Positions 1 to 6,186 of a DNA stretch of 64,000 nucleotides are shown here, one piece after another; position 1 is the first letter of the stretch; each line of letters opens with the position of its first letter. The notes under the pieces were generated by a model, which did not search any database, was not told the origin of the DNA, and saw only the letters and a list, made by a program, of their open reading frames with translations. This stretch comes from Cellulomonas fengjieae (GTDB lineage Bacteria; Actinomycetota; Actinomycetes; Actinomycetales; Cellulomonadaceae): assembly GCF_018388465.1 (NCBI RefSeq), contig NZ_CP074404.1:2356001-2420000 (forward strand), written 5' to 3'. A program made the position numbers and the translations under genes.

Positions 1-48
1 CGTCGGCACACCGGAGCCCCCGAGAGCAGCCTGGAGAACCCGTCGTGA
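1..48 (+). CDS. C-terminal tail of upstream gene, probably fabD (partial)
   Basis: An open frame enters from the left edge and ends at TGA 46-48. It encodes only the last 15 residues of a protein (ending ESSLENPS). Its stop overlaps the GTG start of fabH as GTGA, which indicates translational coupling. By the usual actinobacterial order fabD-fabH-acpP-fabF it should be the malonyl-CoA:ACP transacylase, but too little protein is visible to confirm this; the assignment rests on position alone. Confidence 0.5.
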   Translation, partial: RRHTGAPESSLENPS

Positions 49-1049
49 CCCGTCCCACCCTCACGCAGGCCACCGGCCCCGCCCACACCCGCATCCTGGG
101 CATCGGCGGCGTCCGCGGCGAGCGGGTCGTCCCCAACGACGAGCTGGTCGCCGCGATCGACTCCTCCGACGAGTGGATCCGCCAGCGCACCGGCATCGTG
201 ACGCGCCGCCGTGCCGAGGCCGGCACCGACGTGCTGGACCTCGCCGAAGGCGCCGCCCGGGCCGCCCTGGAGAACGCGGGCCTGACCGGCGCCGACATCG
301 ACGTGGTGATCCTGTCGACCGTCACGTACTTCCACCAGACGCCCGCGGGCGCCGCCATCGTCGCCGAGCGCATCGGCGCCATCCCCGCCGCGGCGTACGA
401 CATCTCGGCCGCCTGCGCCGGCTACTGCTACGGCATCGGCCAGGCCGACGCGCTCGTCCGTGCCGGCTCCGCCCGCAACGTGCTGGTCATCGGCGCCGAG
501 AAGATGAGCGAGTTCGTCGACCCGACCGACCGCTCCATCTCCTTCCTGCTCGGCGACGGCGCCGGCGCGGTCGTCGTCGGCCCCTCCGACACGCCCGGCA
601 TCGGCCCGACGATCTGGGGATCCGACGGCAGCCAGGCGCAGGCCATCCGGCAGACCCACTCGTGGCTGGCCACCCGCGACGAGGGGCTCGGCTGGCCGAC
701 GCTGCGCCAGGAGGGTCCGAGCGTCTACAAGTGGGCCGTCTGGCAGATGGCGCCGGTCGCGCAGAAGGCGATGGACGCGGCGGGAGTCACCGCCGACCAG
801 ATCGAGGCGTTCATCCCCCACCAGGCGAACATGCGGATCATCGACCAGATGGTCAAGACCCTGAAGCTGCCCGACACGGTCGTCGTCGGACGGGACATCG
901 TGGACACGGGCAACACGTCCGCGGCCTCGATCCCGCTGGCGACCGAGCGGCTGCTGCGGGAGGGCCAGGTGCCCAGCGGCGCGGTCGCCCTGCAGATCGG
1001 CTTCGGCGCGGGCCTCGTCTACGCGGCGCAGGTCGTCGTCCTGCCCTGA
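45..1049 (+). CDS. fabH: Beta-ketoacyl-ACP synthase III (KAS III)
   Basis: This 334-aa enzyme condenses an acyl-CoA primer with malonyl-ACP to start fatty acid synthesis in the cytoplasm. The thiolase-fold triad is visible: Cys124 in SAACAGYCYG, His259 in IPHQANMR and Asn290 in DTGNTSAAS. Length is normal for the family. GTG at 45 is chosen because it overlaps the stop of the upstream frame (GTGA) and a GGAG-type ribosome site lies just upstream. In actinobacteria this enzyme often favours branched primers, but the sequence does not settle primer preference. acpP and fabF follow on the same strand. Confidence 0.95.
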   Translation: MTRPTLTQATGPAHTRILGIGGVRGERVVPNDELVAAIDSSDEWIRQRTGIVTRRRAEAGTDVLDLAEGAARAALENAGLTGADIDVVILSTVTYFHQTPAGAAIVAERIGAIPAAAYDISAACAGYCYGIGQADALVRAGSARNVLVIGAEKMSEFVDPTDRSISFLLGDGAGAVVVGPSDTPGIGPTIWGSDGSQAQAIRQTHSWLATRDEGLGWPTLRQEGPSVYKWAVWQMAPVAQKAMDAAGVTADQIEAFIPHQANMRIIDQMVKTLKLPDTVVVGRDIVDTGNTSAASIPLATERLLREGQVPSGAVALQIGFGAGLVYAAQVVVLP

Positions 1050-1131
1050 CGGCCTGCGCACGACGCCGGTTGTACGGTTCGTCCCACCCCCAGCACCATC
1101 CACCAGAACGACACGACACGAGGAGACACCG

Positions 1132-1380
1132 ATGGCGTACAGCGAGCAGGAGATCCTGGCCGGCCTGGCCGAGATCGTCAGCGAGGAGACCGGTCTGCCC
1201 ACGGACTCCGTCCTGCCCGAGAAGTCCTTCACCGACGACCTCGACATCGACTCGCTGTCGATGATGACGATCGTCACGCTCGCCGAGGAGAAGTTCGACG
1301 TCCGCATCCCCGACGACGAGGTCAAGAACCTCGCCACCGTCGGCGACGCCGTCTCGTTCATCACGGGCGCGCAGGCCTGA
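1132..1380 (+). CDS. acpP: Acyl carrier protein
   Basis: This 82-aa acidic protein carries the growing acyl chain on a 4'-phosphopantetheine arm. The attachment serine is Ser41 in the DIDSLSM motif, followed by the usual helix (EEKFDVRIPDDE). The ATG at 1132 is preceded by GAGGAGACACC, a strong ribosome site. It lies 82 bases after fabH, and an 88-base gap holding a strong hairpin separates it from fabF. Confidence 0.97.
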   Translation: MAYSEQEILAGLAEIVSEETGLPTDSVLPEKSFTDDLDIDSLSMMTIVTLAEEKFDVRIPDDEVKNLATVGDAVSFITGAQA

Positions 1381-1394
1381 ACCTGCCGAACCCG

Positions 1395-1429
1395 GGTCGG
1401 TCCCGGGCAGTGAACGCCCGGGACCGACC
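1395..1429 (+). terminator. Strong hairpin between acpP and fabF
   Basis: A perfect 14-bp stem (1395-1408 with 1416-1429) encloses the 7-base loop AGTGAAC and is followed by TCTCTC rather than a T run. It starts 15 bases after the acpP stop. It may be a partial terminator or an mRNA-stabilising 3' hairpin that lets acpP be expressed above fabF. Which of these is true cannot be read from sequence. Confidence 0.7.
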
Positions 1430-1468
1430 TCTCTCGCACCACCTCTCGACCGCCGACCTGGAGCACCG

Positions 1469-2713
1469 ATGAGCCACGTACCCGACGTCGTCGTCACCGG
1501 ACTGGGGGCCACGACGCCCCTCGGCGGCGACGTGCCCAGCACCTGGGCAGCAGCACTCGCGGGCGAGTCCGGCGCACGGCCGTTCGACAACGACTGGGTC
1601 GAGACCTACGGGCTGCCCGTCACCTTCGCGGCGACCATCAAGGTCCGGCCCGAGGACGTGCTGCCCCGTCCCGAGATGAAGAAGATGGACCCCTCCGCGC
1701 AGTACGCGGTCATCGCGGCGCGGGAGGCGTGGGCCGACGCCGGCGCCCCCGAGGTCGACGGCGACCGGCTCGGTGCCGTCGTCTCCTCGGGCATCGGTGG
1801 CATCTGGACCACGCTCGACGCCTGGGACACGCTCAAGGAGAAGGGCGCCCGCCGCATCCTGCCGATGACGGTGCCCATGCTCATGCCCAACTCCCCCACC
1901 GCCTACGTCTCGCTCGAGCTCGGCGCGCGCGCCGGTGCGCACGCCCTGGTCTCGGCCTGCGCGTCGGGCGCCGAGGCCATCGGGTACGCCGTCGAGATGA
2001 TCCGGACCGGCCGCGCCGACGTCGTCGTCGCCGGCGGCACGGAGGCCTCGATCCACCCCATGCCGGTGGCGGCGTTCGCCGCGTCGCGCACCCTCTCGCT
2101 GCGCAACGACGACCCGCAGGGCGCCTCGCGCCCGTACGACGTCGACCGCGACGGGTTCGTCCTCGGTGAGGGCGCCGGCGTGGTGGTGCTGGAGAGCGCC
2201 GAGCACGCGGCCGCCCGTGGCGCCCGCGTCTACGCCCGCATCGCGGGGGTCGGCCTGTCGGCCGACGGGTACCACATCACCTCACCGGAGCCCACGGGCG
2301 ACGGGCAGGTCCGCGCGATGCGCGCCGCCCTGGAGCAGTCGGGGATCGACCGGCTCGACGTGGTGCACGTCAACGCCCACGCCACGTCGACGGTCGTCGG
2401 TGACCTCATCGAGGCGCGGTCGATCCGTGGGCTGCTCGGCGACGAGGCGGACCACGTGGCCCTCTCCGCCACGAAGTCCATGACCGGGCACCTGCTCGGT
2501 GGCGCGGGTGCGCTGGAGACGATCTTCACTGTGCTCGCGCTGCACGACCGTCAGGCGCCGCCCACGATCAACGTCGACAACCCGGACCCTGAGCTGCCGC
2601 TGGACCTCGTCCGCGACAAGCCCCGCGCGCTGCGCGACGGAGACGTCGCCGCGGTGAACAACTCGTTCGGCTTCGGTGGCCACAACGTGGCCCTGGTCGT
2701 CGCCTCCGTCTGA
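1469..2713 (+). CDS. fabF: Beta-ketoacyl-ACP synthase II
   Basis: This 414-aa KAS II elongates acyl-ACP with malonyl-ACP. The triad is Cys164 (VSACASGAEA), His304 (VNAHATST) and His341 (SMTGHLLGGAG), with the conserved Lys336 (SATKSM). The C-terminal NNSFGFGGHN loop is present. Its ATG follows the ribosome site CTGGAGCACCG. It closes the fab operon and is followed by a large hairpin shared with the convergent DUF3145 gene. Confidence 0.96.
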   Translation: MSHVPDVVVTGLGATTPLGGDVPSTWAAALAGESGARPFDNDWVETYGLPVTFAATIKVRPEDVLPRPEMKKMDPSAQYAVIAAREAWADAGAPEVDGDRLGAVVSSGIGGIWTTLDAWDTLKEKGARRILPMTVPMLMPNSPTAYVSLELGARAGAHALVSACASGAEAIGYAVEMIRTGRADVVVAGGTEASIHPMPVAAFAASRTLSLRNDDPQGASRPYDVDRDGFVLGEGAGVVVLESAEHAAARGARVYARIAGVGLSADGYHITSPEPTGDGQVRAMRAALEQSGIDRLDVVHVNAHATSTVVGDLIEARSIRGLLGDEADHVALSATKSMTGHLLGGAGALETIFTVLALHDRQAPPTINVDNPDPELPLDLVRDKPRALRDGDVAAVNNSFGFGGHNVALVVASV

Positions 2714-2722
2714 GGTCCGACG

Positions 2723-2778
2723 CGACCGTGCCCTGACCGACGCCCACGGCTGCCGTGGCACAGGTCAGGGCACGGTCG
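2723..2778. terminator. Bidirectional terminator hairpin after fabF
   Basis: A perfect 16-bp stem pairs 2723-2738 with 2763-2778. Its loop holds a further short stem (CCACGG 2744-2749 with CCGTGG 2753-2758). It lies exactly between two convergent genes, fabF ending at 2713 and the DUF3145 gene ending at 2782, so it can serve both. Confidence 0.8.
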
Positions 2779-2781
2779 TCC

Positions 2782-3282
2782 TCAGCCCACGCGGTGCAGC
2801 CACCGGACCGGCGCGCCCGCGCCCGCGTACCGGAAGGGCTCGAGCTCGTCGTCCCACGCCTGCCCGAGCGCCAGGTCGAGCTCGGTGCGCAGGCGCAGCG
2901 GGTCGGCGGCGTGCTCGAGGGCGGCGCGGATGCGGTCCTCGGGGACGACGATGTTGCCGTGCACGTCGGTCGCGGCGTGGAAGATCCCGAGCTCGGGCGT
3001 GTGGCTCCAGCGGGAGCCGTCGACGCCGTGGCTCGCCTCTTCGGTGATCTCGTAGCGCAGATGCGCCCAGCCGCGCAGCGCGGAAGCAAGTCGGGCGCCG
3101 GTCCCCTGCGGGCCCTGCCAGGAGTGCTCAGCGCGGTAGAAGCCCGGTCCGGCCGGCTGCGCCGTCCAGTCGAACGTCGCGCGTGTGCCCAGCACGTTGC
3201 CTGCCGCCCACTCCACGTGGGGGCACAGCGCGCGGGGTGCAGAGTGCACGAAAAGTACACCGCGGGTGATCGCACCTGCCAT
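2782..3282 (-). CDS. DUF3145 family protein
   Basis: This 166-aa protein has the N-terminal signature RGVLFVHSAPRALCPHVEWA of DUF3145, a soluble family confined to actinobacteria and of unknown function. The ATG at 3282 is chosen because AGGAGG lies 6 bases upstream; the frame also stays open further upstream without a better ribosome site. No signal peptide or membrane segment is seen. It faces fabF across a shared hairpin. I recall it near fabF in other actinobacteria, so a link to lipid metabolism is possible but unproven. Confidence 0.85.
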   Translation of the reverse strand: MAGAITRGVLFVHSAPRALCPHVEWAAGNVLGTRATFDWTAQPAGPGFYRAEHSWQGPQGTGARLASALRGWAHLRYEITEEASHGVDGSRWSHTPELGIFHAATDVHGNIVVPEDRIRAALEHAADPLRLRTELDLALGQAWDDELEPFRYAGAGAPVRWLHRVG

Positions 3283-3434
3283 GTCGTCCTCCTGAACGGG
3301 CTCGAGGTTCGCCTTCCCCAACGACCTCAGTCACGTTCACAGGACTCACGGATGATGTGCAGACAGCACGCGCGGCGTGCTGGGGACAGCATGCCGGACG
3401 GATCCGCAGGGCGCCAGCCCTTGGGCAGGAACGG

Positions 3435-3923
3435 CTACAGCGTGTCGCGGATCGCGCGCATCGCCTTCTTGCGCACCGACCGCTCGAGGCGGTCGAGGTA
3501 CAACATCCCGTCCAGGTGGTCGACCTCGTGCTGCAGGCACCGCGCCATGAGCTCGACGCCCTCGACGACGACCTCCTTGCCGTCCAGGTCGGTGCCGACG
3601 ACGCGTGCGTACCAGGACCGGTGCGTGGGGAACCAGAGGCCGGGGACCGACAGGCAGCCCTCGTCACCGTCCTGGTACTCGTCCTCGGACAGCTCGACGA
3701 TCACGGGGTTCAGCACGTAGCCGACCTCGTCGTCGATGTTCCAGGAGAACGCCCGCAGGCTGACGCCGATCTGGTTCGCAGCCAGGCCCGCGCGGCCGTC
3801 CGTGTCCACGGTCTCGAGCAGGTCCTCGACGAGGCCGCGCACGCGGTCGTCGATGGTCGTGATCGGGTCGCAGGGGGTGCGCAGGACGGGGTCCCCGACA
3901 GTCCGGATCTCTCGCATCGCCAT
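3435..3923 (-). CDS. def: Peptide deformylase
   Basis: This 162-aa metalloenzyme removes the N-formyl group from nascent proteins. All three family motifs are visible: GLAANQIG (about 46-53), EGCLS with metal ligand Cys90, and QHEVDHLDG with ligands His132 and His136 and catalytic Glu133. The ATG at 3923 (MAMREIR) has GAGG upstream; ATG 3917 (MREIR) is an alternative. The gene appears to stand alone, with about 150 bases to DUF3145 downstream and about 200 noncoding bases upstream. Confidence 0.95.
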
Positions 3924-4123
3924 GCGCAGATCCTCGCACGGCGCGCGGTTCGAGGAGGCGCACACGACGCCCGCGAGGCCCCGGAGGCCGGTGAGTGTGA
4001 GCAGCGTGACATCCCGTGGCCGTCCCGCGCGCCGGACCGCGACGGTCGCCGGTCCCCGTCTTTCCGGCAGGGCCAGCTATCACCGTCGCCGGCACGTTCG
4101 TGCGGACGCAGGAATGCAGAAAA

Positions 4124-4148
4124 CCCCCGAGCTCATCGAGCTCGGGGG
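4124..4148 (-). terminator. Rho-independent terminator of bldC
   Basis: Read on the minus strand, an 11-bp perfect stem (4148-4138 with 4134-4124, three-base loop) is followed by TTTTCT, an unusually clean intrinsic terminator for this genome. It lies 23 bases after the bldC stop. On the plus strand the hairpin is followed by CTTTCTT, but no plus-strand gene ends here. Confidence 0.85.
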
Positions 4149-4171: not shown

Positions 4172-4384
4172 TCACTCGCCGCGCTGCGTGGGAACACCCG
4201 TGAGGAGCGAACGCACCTCGGCCTCGTGGAAACGGCGGTGGCCGCCGAGCGTACGGACGGCCGACAGCTTGCCGGCCTGGGCCCAGCGGGTGACCGTCTT
4301 CGGGTCGACGCGGAACAGCACCGCGACCTCGCCGGGAGTAAGCAGTGCGCCCTGCGAGAGGGGGGCGTCGGTGGTCGTGGCCAT
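4172..4384 (-). CDS. bldC: BldC-type MerR-like small DNA-binding protein
   Basis: This 70-aa protein is a single winged helix-turn-helix of MerR/excisionase type: LLTPGEVAVLFRVDPKTVTR, then WAQAGKLSAVRTLGGHRRF. It closely resembles Streptomyces BldC (68 aa), which binds arrays of direct repeats and controls the onset of development. ATG 4384 is chosen for the length match and for AGGAG 8 bases upstream. Cellulomonas-like bacteria do not form aerial hyphae, so the regulon here must differ. The gene has its own promoter, a structured leader of about 95 bases resembling a c-di-GMP riboswitch, and its own terminator. Confidence 0.9.
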   Translation of the reverse strand: MATTTDAPLSQGALLTPGEVAVLFRVDPKTVTRWAQAGKLSAVRTLGGHRRFHEAEVRSLLTGVPTQRGE

Positions 4385-4401
4385 GGTGGTTCTCCTGTCG
4401 T

Positions 4402-4483
4402 TCGGTAGCTCGGCTGGCCCTGTGGGCCCCGTGGCTTTGCGTCCCCGCCTTGCGGCGGGTTTGCCGTTGTCGCTGACAACAGG
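4402..4483 (-). promoter_or_regulatory. Candidate c-di-GMP-I (GEMM-like) riboswitch in the bldC leader
   Basis: On the minus strand the leader contains GGCAAACC (4465-4458), a CCCGCC-GCAA-GGCGGG hairpin with a GNRA tetraloop (4459-4444), then GGGACGCAAAGCC (4445-4433). These match the P2 arm and junction strands of the c-di-GMP-I class as I remember it from the Vc2 aptamer. A second stem follows, GGCCC-ACA-GGGCC (4428-4416), shorter than the usual P3. The 5' segment CCTGTTGT (4483-4476) can pair with ACGACAGG (4401-4394), which overlaps the bldC ribosome site, so control of translation is plausible. Ligand class is inferred from the motif only. Confidence 0.6.
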
Positions 4484-4484
4484 A

Positions 4485-4513
4485 ACTATGCCCGAATCTG
4501 GACGCTTGTGCAA
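4485..4513 (-). promoter_or_regulatory. bldC promoter
   Basis: On the minus strand a TTGCAC -35 (4513-4508) and a CATAGT -10 (4490-4485) are separated by 17 bases. Transcription would begin near 4480-4477, giving a leader of about 95 bases. The perfect inverted repeat GTTGTC-AGC-GACAAC (4480-4466) falls at the predicted start and could be an operator or a 5'-end hairpin. Confidence 0.65.
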
Positions 4514-5413: not shown

Positions 5414-5487
5414 TGGGGCAGGTGGGGCTTGAACCCACGACCGACGGATTATGAGTCCGCTGCTCTGACCGGCTGAGCTACTGCCCC
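5414..5487 (-). tRNA. tRNA with CAU anticodon, probably elongator tRNA-Met
   Basis: Read on the minus strand, a 74-base cloverleaf begins GGGGCAG and ends CTGCCCC plus discriminator A, giving a perfect 7-bp acceptor. The anticodon loop is CTCATAA (CAU) and the T arm carries GTTCAAG. CCA is not encoded. A CAU anticodon is shared by elongator Met and by Ile2 (lysidine-modified). Lack of an initiator-type unpaired first base argues against fMet, but Met versus Ile2 cannot be settled by eye. Confidence 0.9.

Positions 5488-6113: not shown

Positions 6114-6186
<73 letters not shown>

Follow-up and report, generated by a model that had tools for sequence, protein, structure and literature searches.

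Riboswitches of the c-di-GMP-I class (Rfam RF01051; Vc2 and its relatives) share a three-way junction, a GNRA-type loop on P2, which in this class docks into a P3 receptor, and the contact bases G20, A47 and C92. The same scaffold, including an A-G bulge in P3, is modelled by RF03167 (c-di-GMP-I-GGC), whose consensus carries a G at position 47; this variant reportedly stems from Weinberg 2017. We infer, from no source, that GGC denotes G20/G47/C92, and in the parts of the literature available to us c-di-GMP-I-GGC appears only as a model name. According to the available sections of two reports, the J2/3 base of this fold is an A (A41 or A47) stacked between the two ligand bases, C75 or C92 touches one of these bases and A14 or G20 the other (PMC6274999, PMC9049102). 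The 3',3'-cGAMP riboswitch (GEMM-Ib) has the same fold and junction geometry (PMC6274999, available in part) but carries A14 at what we take to be position 20, an equivalence based on our own alignment and on the helix limits given in that paper. In the part of the Vc2 literature at hand, Vc2 is an OFF switch of translation that is governed by the stability of P1 (PMC9262584).

In Streptomyces, c-di-GMP acts on development via proteins, BldD among them, and a predicted diguanylate cyclase gene, cdgE, is activated by BldC (PMC6428758, available in part). The portions of the literature consulted make no mention of an RNA that controls bldC in Streptomyces. With a c-di-GMP riboswitch ahead of a BldC-family gene this order would be turned round, and c-di-GMP would act on a BldC-type regulator via RNA.

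Here we analyse 64,000 nt of the Cellulomonas fengjieae genome (NZ_CP074404.1, positions 2,356,001 to 2,420,000; hereafter the window), for which an earlier note had proposed a GEMM-like c-di-GMP riboswitch in the leader of bldC. We put at roughly 0.78 the probability that a c-di-GMP-I (GEMM-I) riboswitch forms nearly the entire 5' leader of a BldC-family mRNA in Cellulomonas. Compared with RF01051 riboswitches, the RNA in the window has a shorter P3, lacks a separate expression platform, has its predicted start at P1 and precedes a BldC-family target. No publication joining bldC, riboswitch and c-di-GMP was found among the matches listed, although supplements of subscription papers may list the target; those naming Cellulomonas together with c-di-GMP and riboswitch mention the genus only once or twice each in the parts available. 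As far as the literature examined shows, the BldC-family target of this known riboswitch class is apparently unreported.

Results

Aptamer and gene

A search of the whole window with Rfam 15 gave a complete RF03167 match (model positions 1-80) at 4474-4400 on the minus strand, with 63.0 bits against a cut-off of 59 and an E-value of 1.7e-12 for the full window, far above chance. RF01051, the model that the earlier note had suggested running, scored 59.4 bits at the same place in a whole-genome search (cut-off 35). The leader motifs named there were all found on the minus strand, namely GGCAAACC, a GCAA-capped hairpin, GGGACGCAAAGCC and TTGCAC spaced 17 nt from CATAGT. Read on that strand from 4513 to 4384, the region consists of TTGCAC, 17 nt, CATAGT, 7 nt, GTCAGCGACAACGGCAAACCCGCCGCAAGGCGGGGACGCAAAGCC...GCTACCGAACGAC, AGGAG, 7 nt and the ATG. 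Its features are the following.

4508..4513, minus strand: -35-like TTGCAC, from the sequence; a TTG-type -35 occurs in 51/54 distinct bldC leaders
4485..4490, minus strand: -10-like CATAGT, 17 nt from the -35; [CTG]ATAGT is conserved in 50/54 leaders
4477, minus strand: predicted transcription start at the first P1 base, 7 nt past the -10, where the conserved GTC or GTTG begins
4400..4474, minus strand: c-di-GMP-I class aptamer, Rfam boundaries; RF03167 63.0 bits, RF01051 59.4 bits
4471..4477, minus strand: P1 5' strand GUCAGCG, pairing with 4397-4404; from the covariation alignment
4397..4404, minus strand: P1 3' strand CGAACGAC, from the sequence; GUC-GAC or GUUG-CGAC in 53/54 bldC leaders
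4439..4464, minus strand: P2 with a GCAA tetraloop at 4453-4450; 98.9-100% of cells paired, 5 two-sided pairs
4407..4436, minus strand: P3 with the A-G bulge; 95.9% of cells paired, 5 two-sided pairs
4465, minus strand: G20-equivalent, predicted ligand contact; G in 153 and A in 3 of 156 distinct aptamers
4438, minus strand: A47-equivalent, predicted to stack between both ligand guanines; A in 156/156 distinct aptamers
4405, minus strand: C92-equivalent, predicted to pair with a ligand guanine; C in 155 and T in 1 of 156 distinct aptamers
4392..4396, minus strand: Shine-Dalgarno AGGAG abutting P1, from the sequence
4172..4384, minus strand: BldC-family gene, 70 aa; HTH_BldC NF033787, 100.1 bits, cut-off 77
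4124..4148, both strands: hairpin with T-runs after the gene, terminator-like in either direction; 11 pairs on the plus strand, a 5-pair stem inside it on the minus strand

The same arrangement recurs throughout the genus. Among 60 Cellulomonas genomes, in which 125 aptamers were listed, 58 (that of C. fengjieae included) have an aptamer 54-67 nt before a BldC domain, the BldC genes for this count being hand-picked among the matches listed, in a block near 100 bits. The remaining two genomes had no aptamer; one is 61% complete and the other is 100% complete in 530 contigs. Further BldC copies without an aptamer exist in genus genomes. With the covariance-model matches, this recurrence and the covariation given below, the idea that a BldC-family gene has a c-di-GMP-I type aptamer in its leader is borne out; judged by computation, the element is a c-di-GMP-I riboswitch and belongs to a known class.

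The name bldC given earlier to the gene holds for the family and fails for the particular copy. The window protein matched PDB entries 6amk and 6ama, which we take to be BldC of S. coelicolor, with 94 and 93.7 bits, respectively, and another copy in the same genome, at 3,181,675, is closer to 6ama (113.8 versus 93.7 bits). Since that copy, 68% identical to the window protein, matches S. coelicolor BldC better, the gene in the window is, by sequence comparison, best called a BldC-family paralogue. A genome-wide search with RF03167, which listed two places only, placed no aptamer at the 3,181,675 copy. The accessible part of the structural report assigns 6amk and 6ama to S. coelicolor BldC (PMC5859096); the window protein shares its winged helix-turn-helix and retains the interface residues F21, V23 and W31 described there, although it is a paralogue of Streptomyces BldC and not its closest copy.

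The BldC-family mRNA is probably monocistronic. Judging by their sequence, open reading frames at 45-3965 may encode ketoacyl synthases and an acyl carrier protein, as in a cluster for fatty acid synthesis, and, beyond bldC, a peptide deformylase. The Rfam scan of the window also showed two tRNA genes, at 5414-5487 (minus strand) and 6114-6186 (plus strand).

Covariation of the fold

We aligned 59 aptamers, picked for diversity, with MAFFT. The structure is paired in 93.2% of the cells of this alignment, and 13 pairs show two-sided changes, compared with 7.4 +/- 1.2 in shuffled controls (0 of 500 shuffles as high) and 5-6 in slid controls; relatedness is removed by the slid control and left in by the shuffle control. 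The fold thus covaries across the 59 aptamers, as the earlier note had suggested examining for related leaders, and the P1-P2-P3 three-way junction is backed by covariation. Support is weakest for P1, where all three outer pairs show two-sided change although pairing there reaches just 65.5% of cells; the two inner pairs form in 96.6% without paired variation. In P3, the window and 13 further rows leave one position (C 4433 opposite A 4410) unpaired. The loop of P2 is GCAA in the window, and by a loose pattern each of the 156 distinct aptamers has GNRA close to this loop. The unconstrained fold of the window leader differs from the aptamer fold.

Ligand contacts

The contact bases were placed on 4438, 4405 and 4465 by means of the published helix limits and our own alignment. 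The window carries the canonical set of G20, A47 and C92. Among 156 distinct aptamers, position 20 is G in 153 (A in 3) and position 92 is C in 155 (T in 1), in a search whose pattern admitted only G or A at position 20 and C, T or A at position 92; position 47, which the pattern left unrestricted, is A in all 156. The set is the 158 distinct sequences retrieved minus a false regex match in L033 and a tandem fragment in L067. The patterns missed the aptamers of L036, L051, L057, L063, L074, L195 and L196, and L075 was removed for its 3' end; these also carry A at position 47 where it is readable. Because this RNA has the canonical contact bases and lacks the G47 of RF03167, the ligand is very probably c-di-GMP, and the RNA in the window is, by its sequence, an RF03167 scaffold with canonical c-di-GMP contacts. 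The rare exceptions, 4 of 156, are A20 in L110, L134 and L209 and U92 in L093; ligand preference may have shifted there. L110 and L093 are themselves bldC leaders.

Two other readings bear on what, if anything, this RNA senses. It is improbable that it recognises another cyclic dinucleotide, be it 3',3'-cGAMP or whatever true G47 'GGC' RNAs bind. That the GGC variant family is the top-scoring model for the window copy (63.0 against 59.4 bits) speaks for such a ligand, as do the rare A20 copies, but the second aptamer of the same genome prefers RF01051 (67.4 against 66.2 bits for RF03167). The window has G at 4465, where the 3',3'-cGAMP riboswitch has its A14, and A at 4438, where the RF03167 consensus has G. 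A pattern for the G47 core matched in 4 of 296 phylum genomes, below the roughly 16 matches of a backwards control, and the rest of the aptamer was absent in all four, as against 60 of 296 genomes for the A47 pattern; a true 'GGC' variant with another ligand is unsupported in this lineage. A sister genus, moreover, has an EAL gene under the same aptamer. The suggestion in the earlier note that a short P3 might signal a different ligand finds no support in the contacts or in this EAL gene. Still less probable is a structured leader that serves mRNA stability or constitutive translation, ligand sensing having been lost in this gene. Its layout would suit such a role, as a P1 helix at +1 could shield the 5' end and a separate expression platform is absent, but the contact bases, which have no role in the helices, are almost invariant family-wide.

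Promoter and leader layout

Of the bldC leaders of the genus, 58 are linked to an aptamer, and 54 distinct ones were read by regex. In 50 of these 54, P1 begins 6-8 nt after [CTG]ATAGT, and 4 are without it; a free scan found the hexamer nowhere else in the upstream sequence examined of the 54. A first -10 search had covered only 5-8 nt before P1, so that its counts of 54/54 and 51/51 were partly built in. By pattern, a TTG-type -35 stands 16-18 nt from a -10-like hexamer in 51/54. The 'good promoter' of the earlier note is accordingly good in its conservation and poor in its consensus strength, TTGCAC/CATAGT being missed by a consensus scan at its threshold. Because the hexamer keeps this distance from P1 in 50/54 leaders, the predicted +1 of the bldC leaders that have it is the base that opens P1. 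No fixed -10 distance holds for the 51 other leaders, which start with GTCARCG: under the same strict rule in a free scan, 11 have a hexamer at 6-7 nt, 2 have one at 14 nt and 38 have none, and the best mean match to TATAAT falls at 9 nt (3.49 of 6), followed by 7 nt (2.80). An argument from one -10 distance common to both promoter groups was accordingly given up, and the wider view set out at the end was rated slightly lower for it.

P1 is closed by GUC-GAC or GUUG-CGAC in 53/54 bldC leaders, and the remaining one sets GUC against GAU. In the window AGGAG follows the GAC of P1 with zero gap, and promoter, aptamer and ribosome site abut in a leader of about 93 nt. It had been proposed that the 5' end pairs over the ribosome site. 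This stands for the 5' GUC, whose partner is the GAC immediately ahead of the Shine-Dalgarno sequence, and not for the 8 bases further upstream, with which matched leaders do about as well as unmatched ones: the mean pairing energy is -4.83 kcal/mol for matched leaders, -4.62 +/- 0.18 for unmatched leaders and -4.43 +/- 0.22 for shuffled spacers. An extended P1 that hides the Shine-Dalgarno sequence by means of bases before +1 (UCCUGUUGU with ACGACAGGA in the window) was rejected because bases upstream of +1 should stay untranscribed and the gain in pairing is negligible.

Direction of control

With this layout, transcription would begin at the first base of P1, c-di-GMP would bind at the G20/A47/C92 junction, binding would close or stabilise P1 against the Shine-Dalgarno sequence, and the closure of P1 would alter the access of the 30S subunit. 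Control likely acts on translation initiation since the leader leaves no room for a terminator or a long expression platform; transcription termination is an unlikely control point. Cellulomonas would in this way provide a compact system for testing translational control by an aptamer without a separate expression platform.

As to the sign, repression by the ligand is slightly favoured because Vc2, of the same class, is a translational OFF switch that depends on P1 stability. Activation by the ligand appears possible but doubtful. In an ON switch, CUACC, which comprises the end of P3, J1/3 with C92 and the start of the P1 3' strand, would pair in the free RNA with the GGAG of the Shine-Dalgarno sequence, and the ligand would recruit C92 and set that sequence free. 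This pairing is present in the unconstrained minimum-free-energy structure of the window leader, and the four commonest local 3' folds, which account for 18 of 41 bldC leaders, belong to this type; the fold energy of the local 3' region averages -3.1 kcal/mol over all 41. The sets used here are the 41 of 54 bldC leaders and 35 of 65 other leaders that passed the start-codon and leader filters. Modelled openness of the Shine-Dalgarno sequence rises in the ligand-like fold in 39/41 bldC leaders cut at the AUG, but the effect shrinks to 26/41 once 20 or 45 nt from the AUG are included and is indistinct in the non-bldC leaders (19/35, 15/35 and 10/35). The alternative hairpin is also weak, and both of its strands are conserved for other reasons. 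Modelled folding alone leaves the sign of control undecided, and repression is kept as the preferred direction.

Distribution and further targets

In the family, aptamers were found in 96 of 200 genomes and in 7 of 25 genera. We read 38 aptamer places from six genera other than Cellulomonas, in 40 loci chosen among the matches listed: 7 precede bldC-like genes, 15 small (V/I/L)PxQ proteins, 2 EAL-type genes and 14 other genes. In one sister genus the aptamer lies directly before EAL genes, recognised by Pfam EAL with 199.7 bits in L208 and by sequence in L210; these pairs are a possible c-di-GMP feedback loop. Other genes after the aptamer in sister genera encode PKD and DUF4214 domains. Across the phylum, 157 of 396 genomes match at E <= 0.001, with up to 11 matches per genome, and the genes that follow include type IV pilin-like, CAP and glycosyl hydrolase 16 ones. 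A genus with large genomes (g32) showed only two weak matches among those listed (E 2.5e-4 and 7.2e-4). In the C. fengjieae genome itself, GGDEF and EAL gave 6 and 7 matches, respectively, not all of them complete. This GGDEF/EAL content and the downstream genes fit c-di-GMP as the ligand.

Both models detect a second place in the same genome, near 3,739,400, and RF03167 lists only these two. The second aptamer (L031:4828-4971, minus strand) precedes a 48-aa orphan protein (MDQRGYS...VPAQREHAAA) whose gene is followed, by eye, by a terminator-like hairpin with a T-run. The protein has no Pfam match, and a protein search retrieved 22 homologues, of which the named ones are hypothetical and the organism-labelled ones come from Cellulomonas. 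Small orphan proteins follow 51 of 65 non-bldC aptamer rows, with the false match in L033 counted among the 65. The BldC-like and the orphan small proteins have VPxQ near the C terminus in common, which raises the question of a common partner or a degradation signal. Derivation of the orphan protein from BldC, considered for the shared W-A and VPxQ, was rejected at an hhalign probability of 1%.

From sequence comparison, c-di-GMP in Cellulomonas probably controls a BldC-like protein directly by RNA and not through a protein sensor. We give even odds to a wider view, that Cellulomonas and its sister genera possess a small regulon of c-di-GMP-sensing RNAs in which minimal riboswitches govern two recurrent targets, a BldC-like DNA-binding paralogue and a family of orphan proteins of 38-66 aa that end in (V/I/L)PxQ. 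Transcription would there start no more than a few bases from the aptamer start, and the ribosome site would come right after the aptamer. If true, c-di-GMP would reach a developmental-type regulator via RNA, parallel to the protein route of Streptomyces BldD, and an uncharacterised family of small proteins would gain a testable link to c-di-GMP. Aptamers can also be repeated: in L067, about 340 bp hold three aptamer-like units in tandem, the middle one degenerate.
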